This document shows positions 448-50,782 of a stretch of 64,000 bases of DNA, one piece after another. Location of the stretch: positions 1 to 64,000 of the forward strand of contig QIBA01000050.1 of NCBI GenBank assembly GCA_003225175.1, given 5' to 3'. Position 1 is the stretch's first letter, and the number at the start of each line of letters is the position of its first letter. A model generated the notes under the pieces. The model was not told the DNA's origin, ran no database searches, and saw nothing but the letters and a program-made list of their open reading frames with translations. Source of the DNA: Acidobacteriota bacterium. GTDB taxonomy: Bacteria; Acidobacteriota; Terriglobia; Terriglobales; Acidobacteriaceae. A program made the translations under genes and the position numbers.

Positions 448-1386
448 ATGAACTGTGAATGGACGCGGGCGAACGTTGCCCTGTATGTCTATGACGAATT
501 GAAGGACGACGAGCGCTACGAGCTCGAGCGGCATGTGGAGCGTTGCTCGACCTGCCAGTCCGAACTCGAGGCCACGCGCGGCTTCCGCCTGGCAATGTCG
601 GCGAGCCCAGTACCCGATCCTTCGCCGAACCTGCTGACTAGTTCGCGAATGCGGCTCTCTGAAGCGCTGGAGTCCGAACAACCACATCGCGGCTGGCATC
701 GTTTCACCTTCGATCTTGCCGGCTGGCTGCAATCGATGAAGTTTGCTCCGGCGCTCACGGCGGCTTTGCTGATGGTTGGTTTCGCGGCAGGCGTCCTCAC
801 AACGTGGCAGGTAGCACAAAAGCCCGCTCAAGTGGCAGAGATCCAAAAGGGCGGCATGCCACCCGTCGATTCAGCTGCAATCGCAAGCATTCGCGGCATT
901 ACGCAGGACCCCGGCAGCGATCAGGTAAAGATTCAGTACGACAAAGTCCTTCCCGATCAGGCACAAGGATCAATCAACGACCCGAAAATCCAACAGCTTC
1001 TCCTCTTCGCCGCGCGCAACAACATGAACTCCGGTCTTCGCTTAGACTCTGTCGATTTGCTGGCGAAGAGCCCGGATGACAGCCGTGTGCGCGAAGCTTT
1101 GATTTTTGCCCTGCACTATGATCGCAACCCCGGTGTTCGCTTGAAGGCTCTCGATGGACTGCGCTCCTACGTGAAGGACGACCAGAAGGTGCGCGACGCC
1201 GTGCTCGAGGCACTGCTGCAGGATCCCAATCCCGGTGTGCGTACACAAGCGATCTCGTTGCTGGAATCGGTGAAGAACGACAGCAGTGTGCGGCAGGCTT
1301 TCGCCGCACTGGCGCTGGGAGACAAAGATAAGTACATCCAGGAGGAGTCGAAGCGTATGCTTTCCAACCTCCCGGATTTCGAGTAA
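448..1386 (+). CDS. Zinc-finger anti-sigma factor with C-terminal HEAT repeats
   Basis: The N-terminus carries a ZAS-type zinc-binding motif: an early Cys (MNCEW) followed by H-x3-C-x2-C in HVERCSTC. Proteins with this motif hold ECF sigma factors at the membrane. A single hydrophobic helix follows at about residues 100-120 (FAPALTAALLMVGFAAGVL). The part beyond the membrane, from about residue 190 to the end, consists of at least three HEAT-type helical repeats recognisable by the repeated pattern NPGVRLKALDGL / NPGVRTQAISLL / DKYIQEESKRML. A HEAT domain is a protein-binding scaffold and may be the sensory or docking module here (inference). ATG at 448 is taken as the start; a GTG at 439 in the same frame is an alternative. 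The gene lies directly downstream of the sigma factor. Confidence 0.85.
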   Translation: MNCEWTRANVALYVYDELKDDERYELERHVERCSTCQSELEATRGFRLAMSASPVPDPSPNLLTSSRMRLSEALESEQPHRGWHRFTFDLAGWLQSMKFAPALTAALLMVGFAAGVLTTWQVAQKPAQVAEIQKGGMPPVDSAAIASIRGITQDPGSDQVKIQYDKVLPDQAQGSINDPKIQQLLLFAARNNMNSGLRLDSVDLLAKSPDDSRVREALIFALHYDRNPGVRLKALDGLRSYVKDDQKVRDAVLEALLQDPNPGVRTQAISLLESVKNDSSVRQAFAALALGDKDKYIQEESKRMLSNLPDFE

Positions 1387-1423
1387 CAGAACGTCTTGTG
1401 CTCATGCGCTGGCTGATTTCGCT

Positions 1424-1580
1424 TTAGGGAAACGCACGGATTCAAGCCGTGCCGGTAAGATCGGGAATTTGATTTTTTGGGCTTCAGCCCCTGCGGGTGT
1501 TTGTGGGTGAGTCCCCTCACCGGCTAAAGCCGAGCAATATTTGAGGGCTTGGACGGCACGGCTGAAGCCGGTGCTCTCCT
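1424..1580. repeat. REP-like composite palindromic repeat, copy 1
   Basis: The gap between the anti-sigma gene and the DUF4097 gene holds several short palindromes built on variants of GGCTTCAGCC / CGGCTAAAGCCG / CACGGCTGAAGCCG. The same modules occur in the same order at 43340-43559: a TTAGGGAAA start, an imperfect CACG..CGTG hairpin, a (G)CTTCAGC(C) hairpin with a following run of G, a CGGCTRAAGCCG hairpin, and a terminal GGACGGCACGGCTGAAGCC. This is therefore a dispersed repeat and not a gene-specific terminator. No coding potential is evident. Confidence 0.75.
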
Positions 1581-1640
1581 TAAAGCTTCTGCAGGACTTA
1601 AGGCTCTGGACAACGCGCATAGAAATAGAGGAACAACGAT

Positions 1641-2849
1641 TTGGTAGTGATTCGCAATAAATTCGCGCTTCCGACTCTGATGCTGGCGCTCGCCACTCTC
1701 GGCGTAGCCCAGACGGATAGCGCATCCAAGGTCTACCGCGACGGGAACTCCTGGGTGGAAGAGCTTACCGGGACGATGCCTGCGTCGCGCTATATCAAAA
1801 TTCATACCAATACCGGCAGCGTGAGCGTCACCGGTTCTCAGCAATCAAACATTACCTATACGATTCGCAAACGTCTGACCGGCTATTCCGAAGAGAGCGC
1901 ACGTAAGAACTTCGAGAATCTGCGAGTCATAGCTACTCGTCAGGGCGAGGCCGCCTACTTCGGCGGCGAAGGTCCCGGAAATTGGCGACGCGGCTCGGTT
2001 GAGTTCAACATCACTGCCCCGCGATCCGTGGAGGTGATCAAAGCCAAGACGGACGGAGGCGGCCTGCAGTTCTTCCACCTTAACGGGCGCGTGGACGCCG
2101 AGTCTGGGGGCGGTTCCGTAAGTCTCGACGATATCGATGGAAACGTCACTAGCAGCACGGGTGGCGGCTCGATCAAGGTCGGCACAGTGAATGCCGATTT
2201 GGGAATCCGCACAGGTGGCGGTCAGGTGAATATCACTTCCGTGGGAGGACAACTGAAAACCTCGACCGGTGGCGGGAATGTCTATCTGGAGACAGCGAAG
2301 CACGACGCCATTGTTGAAACCGGCGGTGGCAACATTTCAGTGCAGAGCGTCGGCGGGGATCTGCGCGGATCCACCGGTGGCGGCAATATCGAGGTTGGCA
2401 ATGTCGCTGGAACCATGGATGTAGAAACCGGCGGCGGCAGCATTCGCCTTACTGGGGGCGGCAATGGTGCAATTAAGGCGCAAACCGGCAGCGGCAGCAT
2501 CCATTGTGTCCGGATAGGCAGCAGTGTCCGCGCGGAGACCGGCGCTGGGGGAATCACTGCTGAGTTCATGACCATGAACGGCAAGTTCAGCGACTCCACA
2601 CTCGAGACTGGCGTTGGTGACATCATTGTGTATCTTCCGTCTGACTTGAAGGTCAGCGTTCATGCCAGCATCGATGTCGCTACCAGCAGAGACGCCATTC
2701 GCAGCGAACTTCCCGGAATTCGGATCTCGTCCGAAGGCGATTATGGGCCGCGCGAAATGTCGGCCGAAGGCGATCTGAATGGCGGCGGGCCGACGCTGAA
2801 GCTGCATACCTCGACGGGAAAGATTCAATTCATCGCGCTGAAGAAATAA
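1641..2849 (+). CDS. Exported DUF4097-type beta-repeat protein
   Basis: The first 24 residues form a signal peptide (basic start, hydrophobic stretch LPTLMLALATLGVAQ), so the protein is exported. The body matches the DUF4097/putative-adhesin type: a right-handed beta-solenoid-like protein with short strands separated by TGGG or SGGG turns. At least eight such turns are spaced about 18-20 residues apart between residues 150 and 300. The start is a TTG with GAGG nine bases upstream; a GTG at 1647 is possible. The stop overlaps the first base of an ATG of the next frame, and the real start of the PDZ gene lies 27 bp further on, so the two are almost certainly cotranscribed. In acidobacteria this family often follows ECF sigma/anti-sigma genes. 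Its molecular function is unknown. Confidence 0.8.
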   Translation: MVVIRNKFALPTLMLALATLGVAQTDSASKVYRDGNSWVEELTGTMPASRYIKIHTNTGSVSVTGSQQSNITYTIRKRLTGYSEESARKNFENLRVIATRQGEAAYFGGEGPGNWRRGSVEFNITAPRSVEVIKAKTDGGGLQFFHLNGRVDAESGGGSVSLDDIDGNVTSSTGGGSIKVGTVNADLGIRTGGGQVNITSVGGQLKTSTGGGNVYLETAKHDAIVETGGGNISVQSVGGDLRGSTGGGNIEVGNVAGTMDVETGGGSIRLTGGGNGAIKAQTGSGSIHCVRIGSSVRAETGAGGITAEFMTMNGKFSDSTLETGVGDIIVYLPSDLKVSVHASIDVATSRDAIRSELPGIRISSEGDYGPREMSAEGDLNGGGPTLKLHTSTGKIQFIALKK

Positions 2850-2875
2850 TGGGCACAGCTGCCCGGGGAACTTCG

Positions 2876-4057
2876 ATGAGACGTATTTATTTGATTGGAA
2901 TTGCGCTTCTGGCGCTCGCGGCAATGCCGCTCATTGCGCAGAAGGCCACTACGAAAGTTCGTCATTTTGCTACTCCTGTAACTGTCGAGTTCGAAGGCGC
3001 GGCCAGCCGTTCGTATCTCGGTGTGGGTGTTGCCGATGTTGGCGCCGAGCGCGTGCAGGCCCTCAAGCTAAAAGACGACCGTGGTGTCGAGATCGTTCAA
3101 ATCGATCAGGACGCTCCAGCGGGCAAAGCTGGGCTGAAGGAGCACGATGTCATCGTGAGCTTCAACGGCACGCCGGTGGAGAGCCAGGAGCAATTCAAGC
3201 GTCTCATGCGGGAAACTCCGCCTGGACGAACTGTTTCGCTCGACATCATGCGTGAGGGGCAGCCGCAGAACATCAAAGTCCAGCTCGCTGACCGCAAAAA
3301 GCTGGAGTCGTCAGTTTGGCCTCACGAGCCTGAAGATTTTGCTTTAGCAATGCCGCCCCCTCCTCCTGTTCCTGCGATGCCGGATTTCCCACGCGCGTGG
3401 ACGGACCAAAGCTACACTCGGATTCGTTCCACCGCCGGCGTAACTCTCGAGAGTTTGACGCCGCAACTCGGCGACTACTTTGGCGTGAAAAACGGTGAGG
3501 GCTTGCTGGTGCGCTCGGTGCAGAAGGGTAGTACCGCCGACACTGCGGGTCTGCGCGCTGGCGATGTCATCGTAAAAGTCGGCGATCAGAAGATCTCTGA
3601 TAATTCGGATTGGCGTGAGGCTTTGCGTACCGGCAAGAACGGCAAAATATCAATAGTCATTGTGCGCGATAAAAAGGAGCAGACGCTCTCCATGTCAGTA
3701 CCCGCGCGTCGAGGATCAGACAGCTCGGCACTGACACCCGAGGGATTGCCGGAAGCAGAACTAGCGATTGCATCCGCGGCTGAGGCTCTCGAGAGAGTGG
3801 AGCCGCTCATCGACGATGGAGAACTCACCACGAGCGATGTGCTCATCGATGGCTCCGAAATCAATCGCGCTATGCGAAAAGCCATGGAAAAACTTCACCG
3901 AGAGCTGATCGATAATCGCAGTAATCTCAACCGGAGTATCTCCGGGTCCATGAAGCTGCTGTCTGTCCAATTAAAGGCACACGGAGCAGAACTGCGTAAA
4001 GCAATGCAGGAAGCAAGTCGCGTTTTTGCCATGCAGTGTGGTTCTGAGATGCTGTAG
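2876..4057 (+). CDS. Exported protein with two PDZ domains
   Basis: A signal peptide (MRRIYLIGIALLALAAMPLIAQ) opens the protein when the ATG at 2876 is used. This ATG is preceded by GGGGAA at a good distance, and I prefer it over the in-frame ATG at 2849. Two PDZ domains follow, at about residues 45-135 (YLGVGVADVG ... AGKAGLKEHDVIVSFNG) and 190-280 (GVTLESLTPQLGDYFG ... ADTAGLRAGDVIVKVGDQ). Both have the carboxylate-binding loop and the AGL-x2-(G/H)D core of HtrA-type PDZ domains. There is no trypsin-like protease domain, so this is not DegP itself. A helical C-terminal tail of about 100 residues is unassigned. As the last gene of the sigma/anti-sigma cassette it is probably a periplasmic substrate-binding or sensing factor (inference). 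Confidence 0.8.
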   Translation: MRRIYLIGIALLALAAMPLIAQKATTKVRHFATPVTVEFEGAASRSYLGVGVADVGAERVQALKLKDDRGVEIVQIDQDAPAGKAGLKEHDVIVSFNGTPVESQEQFKRLMRETPPGRTVSLDIMREGQPQNIKVQLADRKKLESSVWPHEPEDFALAMPPPPPVPAMPDFPRAWTDQSYTRIRSTAGVTLESLTPQLGDYFGVKNGEGLLVRSVQKGSTADTAGLRAGDVIVKVGDQKISDNSDWREALRTGKNGKISIVIVRDKKEQTLSMSVPARRGSDSSALTPEGLPEAELAIASAAEALERVEPLIDDGELTTSDVLIDGSEINRAMRKAMEKLHRELIDNRSNLNRSISGSMKLLSVQLKAHGAELRKAMQEASRVFAMQCGSEML

Positions 4058-26149: not shown

Positions 26150-26779
26150 ATGAAACGTCTCGGCATTCTCCTTTCCGGACGCGGCTCCAACTTCATCGCC
26201 ATCGCCGACAACATTGCGGCAGGAAAAATCCCCGGCGCTGAGATCGCAGTCGTGATCTCCAACATGCCCTATGCTCCGGGCCTGCAAGCTGCCGAGCAGC
26301 GCGAGCTCAATGCACATGTAATCCAGAGTAAAGGACTCCCCCGCGCAGAGCACGATGCCGCGGTCGTCGCTTGTCTGCGCGAGCACAAAGTCGATCTTGT
26401 CTGCCTCACGGGATACATGCGCCTAATCTCGCCGGTGTTTCTCGAAGCATTTCCCAATCGGGTATTGAACATCCATCCCTCGCTCTTACCCGCGTTCCCC
26501 GGACTCGAGGCGCAGCGCCAGGCACTTGAATACGGCGTCCAGGTCAGCGGATGCACGGTGCACTTCGTTGATGAGAATCTCGACCATGGCGTGATCATCA
26601 CGCAACGTTCAGTTCCTGTGCTGCCCGACGATGACGAGCACAGTCTTGCGGAGCGGATCCTGGAACAGGAGCATGTAGCCTATAGCGAAGCCATTCGCAT
26701 GGTACTCGGTGGCGATCATGAGATTCGCGGGCGACGTTACTTGAAGAAGACCACCTCGCTACAGAGCCGCGTTTCCTAA
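26150..26779 (+). CDS. purN: Phosphoribosylglycinamide formyltransferase
   Basis: Formyl-tetrahydrofolate-dependent GAR transformylase, third step of purine synthesis. Seen: LGILLSGRGSNFIAIADNI for the phosphate loop, LVCLTGYMRLISPVFLEAF, LNIHPSLLPAFPGLEAQRQA with the catalytic Asn-His and GCTVHFVDENLDHGVII with the essential Asp. Length 209 fits. Its stop overlaps by four bases the end of the convergent, decayed chloride-channel gene. Confidence 0.94.
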   Translation: MKRLGILLSGRGSNFIAIADNIAAGKIPGAEIAVVISNMPYAPGLQAAEQRELNAHVIQSKGLPRAEHDAAVVACLREHKVDLVCLTGYMRLISPVFLEAFPNRVLNIHPSLLPAFPGLEAQRQALEYGVQVSGCTVHFVDENLDHGVIITQRSVPVLPDDDEHSLAERILEQEHVAYSEAIRMVLGGDHEIRGRRYLKKTTSLQSRVS

Positions 26780-28599
26780 GACGCACTCCCCTTCGAATCT
26801 TCGTCTTCCTGACCGCGAAACAGCAGGGGCACGCTCAACTGCAGAACTCGTTCGCGACGTTCTTCCGTCTCCTGTGCTGCACTTCGTGCCTTCAACAAGT
26901 CGGAAATGGAGATTATGCAGACAACCTCGTTAGGATGCTCGCGTTTGACGACAGGCAGCTTCGTGAACCCACTGCTAGCCATTCGCTGAACAGCGGTCGT
27001 CAGGCGCTCGTCGCTATAGGCAGTGACGGGAGTTTCGATGATCAGCGCTGCGAGCGAGGTCCCTTTCTTCCGGTAACGAACTGCTCGAGATCCCAGCGAG
27101 GGATTACGCCGATCATCTTCCCATTATGGTCCTCGACCGGAAATAGTCGTTGTACCCCAAGGCTGTCATTCACCTGCAAAGCCTGGTGAAGCTGATCGAG
27201 GGTCGCGCCGGGAATGAGTCTGGCGATCTGCGTCCGCATCACTTCTTCGACCGCGAGGCTCTCCATGGGATCGACAATGTATTCGCGCGAGAGGTGATAG
27301 CCACGGCGGCTCAGTTTTTCTGTGAGGATCGACCTGGGCAAGGTCAGCACAACCAGACCGTACGACACTAACGCAGAAATCAGGAGCGGCAGCAATACGC
27401 CCGGATCATGTGTGAGCTCGAAGCCGAAGACCACTGCTGTAAGAGGTGCGCCCAGAGCGCCTGCAAGGACTGCTGCCATGCTGACCAGAGGCCATAAACC
27501 AGTTCCGTAGTGAGGGAGGAAACGAGCTTCGAGACCTCCGAGCGCGCCACCCATCATCAGGAGCGGAGCGAGAACGCCGCCAGAAGTTCCGGATCGGAGC
27601 GAAACTGACCAGATAATGCCTTGACCAGGAAAATGCCAATCAGAGCTTTCAGGGTCAGGTCATGGTCAAGCAGCGAGGCAATGACGTCGTATCGACGCCG
27701 AGAGCTTGGGGAAAGAAATAGCCGCCGATTCCTACCACCGCGGCGCCAATTGCCGGCCACCACATCCAATGGATGGGCAGGTGCGCGAAGCCGTCCTCCA
27801 CCACGTAAATAGCTGAGCTCAGGGCGGCAGCCGGCAGCCCCGCCAGCAGCCCCACGAGCATGCATGAGGCTAATCCGACAGCGTCCACGGCAATGTGGTG
27901 TTCCGGAATGGGAAACAAGGGACCAAGGCCCAGCAAGTAGTGTCTCGCCGCCGCTGCAGTGGCGCTTGCCATGGCTACGGGAATCAGGCTGCGCGGCTCC
28001 CATTCAAACAGCAGTAACTCAACGGCCAGCAGAACAGCAGAAATCGGAGCCGCGAAAGTTGCCGACATTCCTGCCGCGGCTCCAGCAACCAGCAGTGTTT
28101 TGCGTTCCGCGCTGCTCATATGGAAGAGCTGCGCAATCAGCGATCCGACGGCTCCGCCCGTCATGATGATTGGTCCTTCGGCCCCGAACGGTCCGCCGGA
28201 GCCGATAGCGATCGCAGCAGAAACCGGTTTAAAAACTGCGACCCGCGGTTCCACTTTTGCTCCGCGCAACAGAATCGCTTCGATAGCTTCGGGAATTCCG
28301 TGTCCGCGAATGCGTTCCGAACCGAAGCGCGCCATGATGCCAACGATCAAACCGCCCACAATGGGAACTAGAATCACGAAAATCCCCAGTGTGTTCTGAG
28401 CCGGAGAATTAAATTCGAAGCTCCAGCGATGAAAGAAGAACAGGTTAGTGAAAAGATAAATAAGCTTCAGCAGAATCAGAGCCAGAAATGCGCCAACTAC
28501 GCCGATACCAATGCAGATAATGGAGAGAGGAATTACCCGAAGGTCGGTGGTGAAATCGGCCAAACTGGAAGCGCGAGCAGCAGAGTGAGTCGTCGACAT
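26776..28599 (-). pseudogene. ClC chloride channel/transporter with CBS domains, disrupted by three frameshifts
   Basis: The N-terminal two thirds (28599 to about 27696) is a clear ClC protein: RGHGIPEAIEAI, GSGGPFGAEGPIIMTGGAVG with the gating glutamate, and GYFFPQALGVG. The frame then changes at about 27696, where GVGYDV needs one more base. It changes again at about 27617 (before IIWSVSLRSGTSGGVLAPLL) and at about 27054 (before TSLAALIIETPVT in the second CBS region). Each junction is repaired by adding a single base, so the gene carries three independent one-base deletions. The restored product would be about 607 residues: a ClC domain followed by two CBS domains. The frame upstream runs to 28638. 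Neighbouring genes are intact, so random poor sequence quality is less likely, but read-level errors cannot be excluded. Confidence 0.85.
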
Positions 28600-28796
28600 G
28601 GGCCCGAGGGTGACGTCAGATTCCGCGACCAGAGTCATCAGTCCGGGAACGGTTAACGCCGCCTGAATATCCAGTTTAGCGCACCGCGAAGCGTGCTTCG
28701 GGCTAGTTCGCGCGAACCTGAGGTTCTGGGCTATTCTTCTTTGTCGCTCTTACAGACAGAAAGTCGCGCCAGCGGCGCGGTTGGAGACTTCCAAGC

Positions 28797-30128
28797 TTGA
28801 TTGCGAGATACACGCGGTCCGAAATGGGGCGTATTTGGAGCGAACAGAACCGCTTTCGAGGATGGTTAAAAGTGGAGGTTGCGGCGACAGAAACTCTCGC
28901 TGAAGCCGGTATGGTCCCCCTGTCGGCAGCGAAAGCTATTCGCGAACGCGGCGACTTCGATCTGGAGCGTATCCAGGCCATCGAATCCGAGGTCAAGCAC
29001 GATGTCGTTGCATTTACAACGGCGGTAGCGGAAAAAGTCGGACTAGAGTCGCGCTGGCTGCACTTCGGCCTCACTTCCAACGACGTCGTCGACACGGCAC
29101 AGGCCCTCCAGATTCACGAGGCTTCGCTGATCATCCGTAACGATCTCGAGGCACTCAAGACCGTCCTCAAGCGGCGCGCACTTGAATTCCAGAACACGCC
29201 CATCATTGGAAGAACGCACGGCGTTCATGCTGAGCCGACAACATTTGGATTGAAGTTAGCGAACTGGTATTCGGAGATCGAGCGCAACATCGAACGCTTT
29301 GAGCACGCAGCTGAAGATATGCGCGTGGGAAAGATTTCCGGTGCAGTAGGGACGCTTGCGCACTTAACTCCCGAACTGGAAGAAAAAATCTGCGGGCGGC
29401 TTGGATTAAAAGTAGCCGCGATCTCCAGCCAGGTCATTCAGCGCGATCGGCACGCCTTTTTCATTGCGACTCTGGCGGTAATTGCCAGCACTTTGGACAA
29501 GATCGCCGTCGAGATCCGCCACTTGCAGCGTACGGAAGTGCGTGAGGCAGAAGAATACTTCAGCGAAAAACAAAAGGGCTCTTCAGCCATGCCGCACAAG
29601 CGCAATCCGATCACATGCGAACAGATCAGCGGACTGGCACGCGTAGTGCGCTCGAATGCGCAGGCAGCACTGGAGAATGTCCCACTGTGGCACGAGCGCG
29701 ACATCTCGCATTCGTCGGTTGAGCGAATTGTTCTTCCCGATTCGACAATTCTCATGGATTACCTGCTGCACAAAACCACTCGCCTGATCGACACACTCCT
29801 GGTTTATCCGGATCGCATGTTGAAGAACCTCGAGAGCAGCGGCGGCCTGATTTTCAGCGGACAGCTCCTCCTCGATCTCGCAGAGTCCGGCATGTCGCGC
29901 GAAGACGCATATCGCCTGGTGCAGAAGCATGCGATGGAGGCCTGGAAGAACGGCAACAACTTTCGCGACGCGGTGCGCAGCGATGCCGAAATTCGCAGCA
30001 AACTCTCCGAGCAGCAGATGGAACGGGCATTTGATTTGAAGCGCCAGCTCGGCAACGTGGATGCAATTTTCAAGCGCGTCTTTTCCCAGCGTCAGGGCGG
30101 GGAAGCTGAGAGATCCGGGAGCGCTTAG
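28797..30128 (+). CDS. purB: Adenylosuccinate lyase
   Basis: Fumarase superfamily enzyme acting twice in purine synthesis (SAICAR and adenylosuccinate cleavage). Seen: LHFGLTSNDVVDTAQALQ, IIGRTHGVHAEPTTFGLKLA with the catalytic His, and the mobile loop KGSSAMPHKRNPITCEQISG with the catalytic Ser. Length 443 is normal. The start is TTG 28797 after GGAG. The C-terminal tail after RVFSQRQGG is short and variable. ubiX follows after nine bases. Confidence 0.95.
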   Translation: MIARYTRSEMGRIWSEQNRFRGWLKVEVAATETLAEAGMVPLSAAKAIRERGDFDLERIQAIESEVKHDVVAFTTAVAEKVGLESRWLHFGLTSNDVVDTAQALQIHEASLIIRNDLEALKTVLKRRALEFQNTPIIGRTHGVHAEPTTFGLKLANWYSEIERNIERFEHAAEDMRVGKISGAVGTLAHLTPELEEKICGRLGLKVAAISSQVIQRDRHAFFIATLAVIASTLDKIAVEIRHLQRTEVREAEEYFSEKQKGSSAMPHKRNPITCEQISGLARVVRSNAQAALENVPLWHERDISHSSVERIVLPDSTILMDYLLHKTTRLIDTLLVYPDRMLKNLESSGGLIFSGQLLLDLAESGMSREDAYRLVQKHAMEAWKNGNNFRDAVRSDAEIRSKLSEQQMERAFDLKRQLGNVDAIFKRVFSQRQGGEAERSGSA

Positions 30129-47603: not shown

Positions 47604-49296
47604 TTACTGCCGGTTCTTTGTCTCAGGCGCGCACTGCTTCAGTAGTTCGCGGATCGAGTCGTCCTGGGGAAAGTTTTCATTCGCCTTCTTTAGCACCTGG
47701 CACGCCTCGCCCGTTTTCTGGAGGGACGAGTACGTCCTGTTTAACAGCCGATAAAGCTCGGCGTCGTAAGGAATGACTTCGATGCCCTGTCGCAACACTT
47801 CAAGCGCGCGCGGCTCCTGGTGAGTTGCGATCAGCATCTTTGCCAACTGCTCGAAATCTGCAGGCTGCGTCATGCCACGCTGCCGAGCACGATCAAGATA
47901 GGCGATTGCCGCATTCAGCCCTTCTTGAGTTCTCTGCTGCAGCGACAGGTCGGCTAGCCCTTGCAGCACCGCCACATGATTTGGTTCCGTCTTGTCTAGC
48001 TCCTGCGCGAGCCTCCAATACCGCGGCCGGTATTCCGGATGCGAAAGCATGATCTGCCGGTAGGCTTGCAAGAGAGTGAGCGGAGGCACAGCAACTGTTT
48101 TTCCCGGCTCTGCGCTCAAGTGAACGAGATCGGGCAGTTGTGGCGTGGTCATCTTGAAGGCGGCATTGGGAAACGGCTCCTGAGGCGTTCGGACCACCCG
48201 ATGATTTGTGAGCACCGAGTGCGAGATCGCTTTCACATCGCGCTTGGGCATATGGCAGCTAATGCAATTGTCCGCCGGCTTCTGCTTCTGCCGCTCGGCA
48301 AGCGGAACGGAGCAGCTTTGCTCCGTGTGGCAGGTCAGGCAGCGCTGGCGGAAGTAATCTGGCGCTTCCGTGGCGGTCGGCTGTGTATGCGGATCATGGC
48401 AGGTAATACACCTCAATCTGCCCGCGCTTTGGCGATAGCATTTGCTCAAGCGCATCGAGAGATAGTGTTCGAGCAGATCGTCCTGCGGCGGCGATTGCGC
48501 CGTGAATGGCACCATGAAGATGCTTAACGTGCTGTCGAGGGTCGAGCCCGGACGAAAATCGCTGTAGTCCTTGGCTGCGTGAAGTATGCGGGCATCGCCG
48601 GTCTGGTGACAGGGAAGGCACACGTTATCAGCCAGCCATGCGGAAAGTCTGGCCGGATTCACGATCGTCTCCCGCGAGGACTGCTTGGGGACGTCCGCTA
48701 TGGCAACTTGTGCATCCCGGCAAGATTGCACGGCTAAAGCCGTAATCGGCGTACTGATAACCTGGTGACAGCGCCCAGGCATTGACGTTCGAATAAAACG
48801 AGAGCGGCGTCTCGAACAGATAATCTGCGCGCTGGACGATACCGCCGAAGCCGTTTGCTCCAGCGCCGATGATCCAATCTACTTTATGCGTCTCGCGGAA
48901 GACCTCTTTGCCGTCGGCAGCGACCTCAAACTCGCTTTGATATAGAGCCCCGTCTTTCGTGTATTGCTCAAAATGCCGGTTCAGATGCTGATCGAAAACT
49001 GAGGCAGAGGTTGGGATTGTCTTCAGAAGGGCAGCATCCACCTTGACCATGGATCGGCCCATATCGGTCCGCGAGTACTTTTCGTAGATGTCGTTATGAC
49101 AGAGAGCGCATTCCTGAGAGCCGACGTAAGCATTCGTTGATGGTTTTGCGTGTTCGGGCGCCGGGTTCGACTGGCGCGCCTTGTTCTCGGAACTGGGCTG
49201 TGCCACAACTGCGCATAGAAGAACTAATACCGCGATCTGCGCTGCACGGCTAAACGCTCGTTCGAAGTTTCGCTCTGCGCAATGGCGGTGCTTCAT
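47604..49296 (-). pseudogene. Multihaem cytochrome c with TPR tail, frameshifted
   Basis: Two overlapping frames make one gene. Upstream frame, from ATG 49296: a hydrophobic signal (AAQIAVLVLLCAVVAQ), haem motif CALCH, then GCTSCHSGRPQAV. After about 48680 the frame changes, and the downstream frame continues with RETIVNPARLSAWLADNVC, CLPCH, CITCH, CLTCH and CISCH, and then a TPR-like C-terminus (AVLQGLADLSLQQRTQEGL, ALEVLRQGIEVIPYD). Six CxxCH sites remain. Relatives of this family usually have a further CxxCH followed by GPG between the second and third sites, and I see none, so a small deletion probably accompanied the frame change (inference). The gene is periplasmic by design but would not produce a full protein. 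Confidence 0.75.
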
Positions 49297-49480
49297 GCGA
49301 AGTATGATGTGAGTCTTTATATCGCAATTTGGAAATCGGCGAGCGCGCGATGTTGATGGCGCGTGGAGTTGAGGAACTTCATGCAGGAAGGCAAAAGCCA
49401 CAGCCGGCCGAGCGGGGTTCCCGGCAGACGCCGCGTTTGCGGCTGCTGGGGTGAGACGGCGGCCGGATCCATGGGATCGC

Positions 49481-50782
49481 ATGCGCATCGTTGAGCTGCG
49501 GGTTCACTCCATTGCCATCGCTGATCCACCCTTGCGGAGTTCGTATGGACTTCATGCTCCTTATGCTCTCAGGTCCATTCTGGAACTTGAGAGCGAGGAT
49601 GGAATTGTGGGAATCAGCGAGACTCACGGCGGGGATGCTATCGCACAAGGCTTTCAGCAACTTCGGGAAAAAATCGTTGGCGCAGATGCATATCTCTTAG
49701 CCGGGAACCTGCTGCCGATGATCGACGCCAGCGCCTCGGGAGATCGCTCGCAGACGTATTACCTTCCCGGCGAAAATCCACTCGACGCTGCTGCGCGACT
49801 TTACTCGGCGATCGAGATCGCCTGTCTTGATCTGATCGGCAAGTCAGTGGCAAAACCCGCTTGTGATCTGCTTGGCGGCCGCGCGCGCAGCGAGGTTCCG
49901 TTCTCCGCGTATCCGTTCTATAAGCAGGCCGGCGGGGGCGGCGAAGGCGACGACGCGCGCTCCGACGAATACGGCGAGGCATTAACTCCAAAGCAGTTGG
50001 TAGTGCAGGTAAAACTGATGTTTGCGAAGTATGGATTTCGCGAGATCAAGTTCAAGGCGGGAGTGCTCGATCCCGCGGAGGAGATCGAGACCGTGCGCCA
50101 GCTTCGCGCAGGATTTGGGCCGAAGGTGCCGATTCGCCTCGATCCGAACTGCGCCTGGTCTGTGGCGACTTCCGTTGAAATTGGAAGAGCGCTACGCGAA
50201 GAGCTGGGGAATGGCGGCTATCTCGAAGACCCGACCGCAAACATCTCCGGAATGGCGGCGGTACGAAAGCAACTCGTCTCCGCAGGAGTGGATACTCCAT
50301 TGGCCAGCAATGTGGCTGTGACCGGCTTTGCCGATCTGCCGGAAGCGATCAAGACTGACGCGGTGCAGGTTGTGCTTTGCGATCCGCACTATTGGGGAGG
50401 GATTCAGCAGGTGCAACATCTCGGCAAGCTTTGCCACACCTTTGGCCTGGGATTGTCGATGCATTCCAACTCACACCTTGGCGTGTCGCTCATGGCAATG
50501 GCACAGGCGGCTGCCGCGACTCCGCAGCTCACATATGCATGCGATACGCACTATCCGTGGCAGTCAGAAGAAGACGAAGTTGTGGCAGGCGGCCGTGTTC
50601 CCATTGTGAACGGCTGCGTGCAGATTCCGGAAAAGCCGGGCTTAGGAGTGGAACTCGATCAGGATCAGCTTGCTCGCGGGCGAGAGCGCTATCGCAAGTG
50701 CAAGTACCGCAAGCGGGATGACGAAGCAGAGATGCGAAAGCACGTGGATCCGAATTGGCGAAGGGTCTTGCCCAGGTGGTGA
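49481..50782 (+). CDS. gudD: Glucarate dehydratase-like enolase-superfamily enzyme
   Basis: Dehydrates glucarate (and often its epimer idarate) to 5-dehydro-4-deoxyglucarate. Enolase fold with capping domain (residues 1-135) and barrel. The KxK pair (Lys190, Lys192 in REIKFKAGV), metal ligands Asp221 (RLDPNCAW) and Glu249 (YLEDPTANI), the Asn277 region (TPLASNVAVTGF) and the catalytic His328 (SMHSNSHLGVSL) are all in place. Length 433 from ATG 49481 is close to the family norm; a GTG at 49451 is an alternative. The C-terminus matches the KYRKRDDEAEMRKH pattern of GudD. It faces the HpcH/HpaI aldolase gene pair, which could process its product. Confidence 0.88.
   Translation: MRIVELRVHSIAIADPPLRSSYGLHAPYALRSILELESEDGIVGISETHGGDAIAQGFQQLREKIVGADAYLLAGNLLPMIDASASGDRSQTYYLPGENPLDAAARLYSAIEIACLDLIGKSVAKPACDLLGGRARSEVPFSAYPFYKQAGGGGEGDDARSDEYGEALTPKQLVVQVKLMFAKYGFREIKFKAGVLDPAEEIETVRQLRAGFGPKVPIRLDPNCAWSVATSVEIGRALREELGNGGYLEDPTANISGMAAVRKQLVSAGVDTPLASNVAVTGFADLPEAIKTDAVQVVLCDPHYWGGIQQVQHLGKLCHTFGLGLSMHSNSHLGVSLMAMAQAAAATPQLTYACDTHYPWQSEEDEVVAGGRVPIVNGCVQIPEKPGLGVELDQDQLARGRERYRKCKYRKRDDEAEMRKHVDPNWRRVLPRW

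Follow-up and report, generated by a model that had tools for sequence, protein, structure and literature searches.

Three single-base losses in a ClC-CBS gene of an acidobacterial draft genome, a possible very recent pseudogene

Prokaryotic ClC channels and transporters with CBS domains (PF00654 together with PF00571) are the closest described counterparts of the gene studied here. The gate motif of ClC proteins is GxEGP, and the gene shares with these proteins both their domains and a GAEGP gate; it differs from them in that its reading frame is broken three times. The best NCBIfam model, PRK01862 ('ClcB-like'), remained below its cut-off even for an intact orthologue (211 versus 482 bits), and we therefore withhold a subfamily name. 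By its profile matches the gene belongs to the ClC channel/transporter family, with chloride movement as its putative function. In bacterial pseudogenes, short frameshifting indels rank with the most frequent changes, and homopolymer sequencing errors yield erroneous pseudogene annotations (Kuo and Ochman 2010, PMC2916853). That study describes the youngest pseudogenes as carrying a single inactivating mutation, whereas the ClC gene carries three, without a measurable neutral phase.

The stretch of DNA analysed, hereafter the window, covers positions 1 to 64,000 of contig C50 (122,749 bp) in the draft genome G000, an assembly of 5.73 Mb in 268 contigs that is 98.9% complete. We compared it with five other genomes of the genus (G001, G002, G003, G004 and G005). 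The orthologue comparison with these close relatives showed the ClC-CBS gene whole in four of the five (G001, G002, G003 and G005), where it forms a single open frame of 608-625 codons (608, 609, 608 and 625). In G004, which is 99% complete, the orthologue was not found, and only a distant ClC type (28% identity) was detected.

The ClC-CBS gene of the window extends over 26776..28599 on the minus strand, as delimited by tblastn pieces and by Pfam matches to Voltage_CLC and CBS. The 608-residue protein of G001 (L006) aligned by tblastn with the window as four minus-strand pieces lying in three frames. Piece 1 (27700..28599, frame -2) covers roughly residues 1-300 of the unbroken protein, holds the GAEGP gate motif in its translation and matched G001 residues 1-302 with 91% identity (Voltage_CLC, E 9.1e-47). 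Piece 2 (27626..27691, frame -1) corresponds to about residues 304-325 and aligned with residues 304-329 at 81% identity across 26 residues, while piece 3 (27070..27614, frame -3) contains the end of the membrane part and the first CBS domain (residues 327-515, 92% identity; Voltage_CLC E 1.9e-17, CBS E 2e-5). Piece 4 (26776..27051), with the second CBS domain and the C terminus (residues 512-604, 84% identity; CBS E 5.3e-8), is again in frame -2 because the three one-base losses total three bases. Stops between the pieces are present in the list of open reading frames. Pieces 1 and 3 scored 160 and 64 bits against PF00654 (cut-off 24.8); the Voltage_CLC match contains two of these frame changes, the third lying outside it, and no continuous frame runs through the membrane domain.

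The frame changes are located at 27691..27700, 27614..27626 and 27051..27070 on the minus strand, and each appears as a gap relative to all four intact relatives, the third between 27070 and 27058. In the blastn alignment with G001, single-base gaps follow 27694, 27624 and 27058, and the coding part is otherwise gapless save for a 3-base pair near 27820-27833 that is balanced. Alignments with the remaining intact relatives, three in number, yielded three net one-base gaps at 27694-27696, 27618-27621 and 27061-27070; they also hold balanced gaps in poorly conserved stretches, and that of G005 shows one further gap four bases from the alignment edge. The inactivating changes are absent from all four, whose frames are open throughout. 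Thus, tblastn and blastn confirmed what a preliminary description of this DNA had stated, namely a ClC/CBS gene spread over three minus-strand frames by three net one-base losses, with recognisable gate residues and CBS domains, and its break positions (about 27696, 27617 and 27054) agree within about 16 bases with the alignment gaps. The same description had extended the gene to 28638; the start common with G001 is at 28599 instead. The frame changes are genuine features of the sequence as given. Under the favoured reading we infer that the organism itself carries the losses and that its broken product would be non-working: only about the first 300 residues are readable in frame, so that no working ClC pore would be expected.

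Inspection of the sequence placed the frame-change sites outside long homopolymer runs, and mismatch bins showed a steady base identity to G001 around them. Phase variation via long homopolymers was rejected on inspection of the sequence. We also considered that the breaks are read through or purposeful, either by programmed frameshifting or with the pieces working separately. Conservation of the pieces as protein and the return of the summed shifts to the original frame would suit such an arrangement; however, the four relatives with the gene have it uninterrupted at these sites, long slippery runs are lacking there, and three separate events would be required in one gene. We regard this explanation as extremely improbable.

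The gene is flanked by two intact plus-strand neighbours, purN (26150..26779; TIGR00639 above cut-off), which lies tail to tail with it, and purB (28797..30128; TIGR00928 above cut-off), which lies head to head. Family matches spanning nearly the full profile were obtained for purN, purB, purM and a UbiX-like gene. For these genes the earlier statement that the neighbours are intact holds, but it does not extend to a multihaem cytochrome/TPR gene on the minus strand (window 47604..49488), in which a 98-bp out-of-frame gap at about 48672 deletes a CxxCH stretch. The counterpart of this gene in G004 (contig C34) is one open frame of 623 codons from stop to stop. In G004, an ORF of 746 codons (G004:C60:63247-65487) adjoins purB at the place where G001, G003 and the window carry the ClC gene.

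Selection on the gene was examined with a codon model of 594 codons, with each piece aligned on its own and an assumed tree of ((own,G001),G005,(G002,G003)). Omega (dN/dS) was 0.040 on the own branch versus 0.047 on the other branches, a difference of 0.14 log units, and forcing omega = 1 on the own branch, which is about 2.3 neutral substitutions per codon long, cost 13 log units. The control gene purB gave 0.034 on the own branch versus 0.037 on the others, using four of the five relatives (G003 was left out, the ORF picked there, L129, not being purB). When the own branch was allowed to end in a neutral period, a length of zero fitted best among the values tried; periods of 0.02, 0.04 and 0.06 substitutions per codon changed the fit by -0.4, -1.3 and -2.7 log units, respectively, so that short periods are allowed and those above about 0.05 are disfavoured by about 2 log units. 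Purifying selection equal to that in the relatives, together with a neutral time of zero, implies that the gene was maintained for nearly its whole history. Its loss, if it occurred at all, would be very recent.

The preliminary description had instead suggested unusual decay or a pseudogene of old date. The presence of three inactivating changes within a single gene would fit this view, as would two unusual glycine replacements in the own copy. G562C introduces a residue found in 0 of 105 family members at a column that is otherwise invariant, and G336R one found in 0 of 110 at a column at least 90% conserved; in the four genus relatives, columns with 90% conservation or more showed no comparable replacement. 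The own copy departs from one otherwise invariant column, compared with a mean of 0.17 and a maximum of 3 among 110 family members (the alignment omits L044, which has the same sequence as L009); a single departure of this kind is thus unremarkable for the family and speaks against giving the replacements much weight. Nevertheless, the low omega over so long a branch, the rejection of omega = 1, the cost of any longer neutral period and the 81-92% identity of the pieces to G001 argue against great age, and we consider an old pseudogene very improbable.

To gauge how noisy the assembly is, 190 own stretches (195 kb) were set against open reading frames from relatives, chiefly G004; the reverse comparison took in 195 pairs (197 kb). 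The own DNA sampled amounts to 1.18 of 5.73 Mb and is non-random, contigs C50 and C49 having been chosen for their ClC genes and the others according to contig number and synteny. The window ClC gene lies outside the 190, but its span contains two of the pairs, both of them antisense frames, which means that the 190 include some non-genes. Moreover, the ClC breaks were measured against G001, G002, G003 and G005 and the other genes mainly against G004, so that detection may differ. Uncompensated single-base gaps numbered four in own DNA (190 pairs) versus four in the relatives (195 pairs), several of them located in short frames or close to where a frame begins. At a uniform rate with four elsewhere, three such gaps in one 1.8-kb gene have a probability of 2.7e-5, rising to 0.005 when multiplied by the 191 genes. 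Because single-base shifts are equally rare in the own genome and in the relatives, uniform sequencing noise poorly explains the ClC cluster.

A different picture emerged for larger gaps. Five out-of-frame internal gaps were present in own DNA among the 190 pairs, of 55 bp (C53:1496), 74 bp (C49:26383), 97 bp (C20:15196), 98 bp (C50:48672) and 109 bp (C66:67437), versus none of 55-109 bp in the relatives among 195 pairs. This excess has a Fisher P of 0.028, or 0.058 when a ClC-CBS paralogue on C49, which lacks a direct counterpart in the relatives, is removed. The 97-, 109- and 55-bp gaps hit conserved genes. In-frame gaps of at least 15 residues were likewise found in own DNA (three, in two genes) and not in the relatives. 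The 55-bp gap was found by base-level alignment alone; the 74- and 98-bp gaps missed the flank filter of that scan and rest on separate alignments. Multi-frame genes made up 8 of the 190 own cases, of which four show a clean gap of 74-109 bp that is out of frame; C57:142121-144278, C51:49467-50052, C51:57189-57777 and C50:87259-87592 were not counted, as they resemble upstream extensions or short doubtful frames. The reverse comparison gave three of 195, namely an apparent tandem copy in adjacent DNA, a stretch of weak conservation and the same C51 site. Many same-strand frame switches, mostly ordinary overlapping neighbours, were reported by a hidden Markov scan for coding frames, which covered C50 and C49 of the own genome as well as contigs of relatives; it was trained on long ORFs from the scanned contigs and is of low sensitivity. 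A switch at 48714 led to the break in the cytochrome/TPR gene, while those at C50:109694-111451 and C50:114523-116864 were set aside as different proteins, judging from their translations. A literature search on frameshifts and local misassembly in metagenome-assembled genomes returned nothing pertinent. The one-sided large gaps suggest faulty joins, possibly systematic, although true deletions are also possible.

These observations bear on the explanation that the gene is intact in the organism and that a local sequencing or assembly fault dropped three bases from the consensus in a poorly supported stretch. Full purifying selection on the pieces with a best neutral time of zero is what this would predict, and the one-sided gaps, both out of frame and in frame, and the draft state of the assembly point the same way. 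On the other hand, the other breaks differ in type (55-109 bp versus one base), single-base gaps elsewhere are at par with the relatives, the sites lie away from long homopolymer runs, and identity to G001 is undiminished near them. We regard a local fault as a serious contender that falls somewhat short of being probable. The preliminary description had rated an assembly error as less likely; given the other suspicious local breaks in the assembly, though of another type, it deserves weight almost equal to that of a young pseudogene.

Contig C49 of G000 carries two further ClC genes. The first is the ClC-CBS paralogue (L002, G000:C49:23905-27888, 1144..2998), which is 64% identical to the window gene and is broken by the 74-bp out-of-frame gap between its membrane part and its CBS domains; no second copy of the ClC-CBS type was seen in any of the five genus relatives. 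The second is of a distant type and forms an open frame of 591 codons. Both ClC-CBS copies might have been independently and recently lost, with the type not found at all in the relative G004; the lineage of G000 would then be abandoning this ClC type and keeping only the distant 591-codon ClC. We consider this unlikely, and the one-sided large gaps weaken arguments that rest on the broken C49 paralogue.

Taken together, we slightly favour a young pseudogene over a local error: an ordinary ClC-CBS gene of the genus that was, by a narrow measure, probably inactivated very recently in its own lineage by small deletions. The points counted for a young pseudogene are the gaps relative to four intact relatives, the rarity of single-base gaps elsewhere, G562C and G336R, and the remaining open 591-codon ClC; those counted against it are the lack of measurable relaxation and the 55-109-bp gaps of the own assembly. 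Within the genus the gene looks dispensable, since G004 shows only the distant ClC type and has another ORF beside purB. A dispensable ClC-CBS gene would lose its selective value, a first single-base loss would disrupt the reading frame, and more losses would arrive before point substitutions build up. If one indel occurs per roughly ten substitutions, three losses would be expected to come with about 30 neutral substitutions, at a cost of about 2 log units (the neutral-time cost is -1.3 log units at 24 substitutions and -2.7 at 36). Three small losses within so brief a period are a strain on the young-pseudogene reading.

The finding is ordinary whether it reflects a fresh loss or an assembly fault, and there is no sign of a new system. 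It serves mainly as a caution that a triple break without any sign of relaxed selection indicates either a very fresh loss or a mis-assembly, and the other 55-109-bp out-of-frame gaps of this assembly would be annotated as pseudogenes as well. If the break is real, it would document that an acidobacterium has recently lost a ClC-CBS gene.
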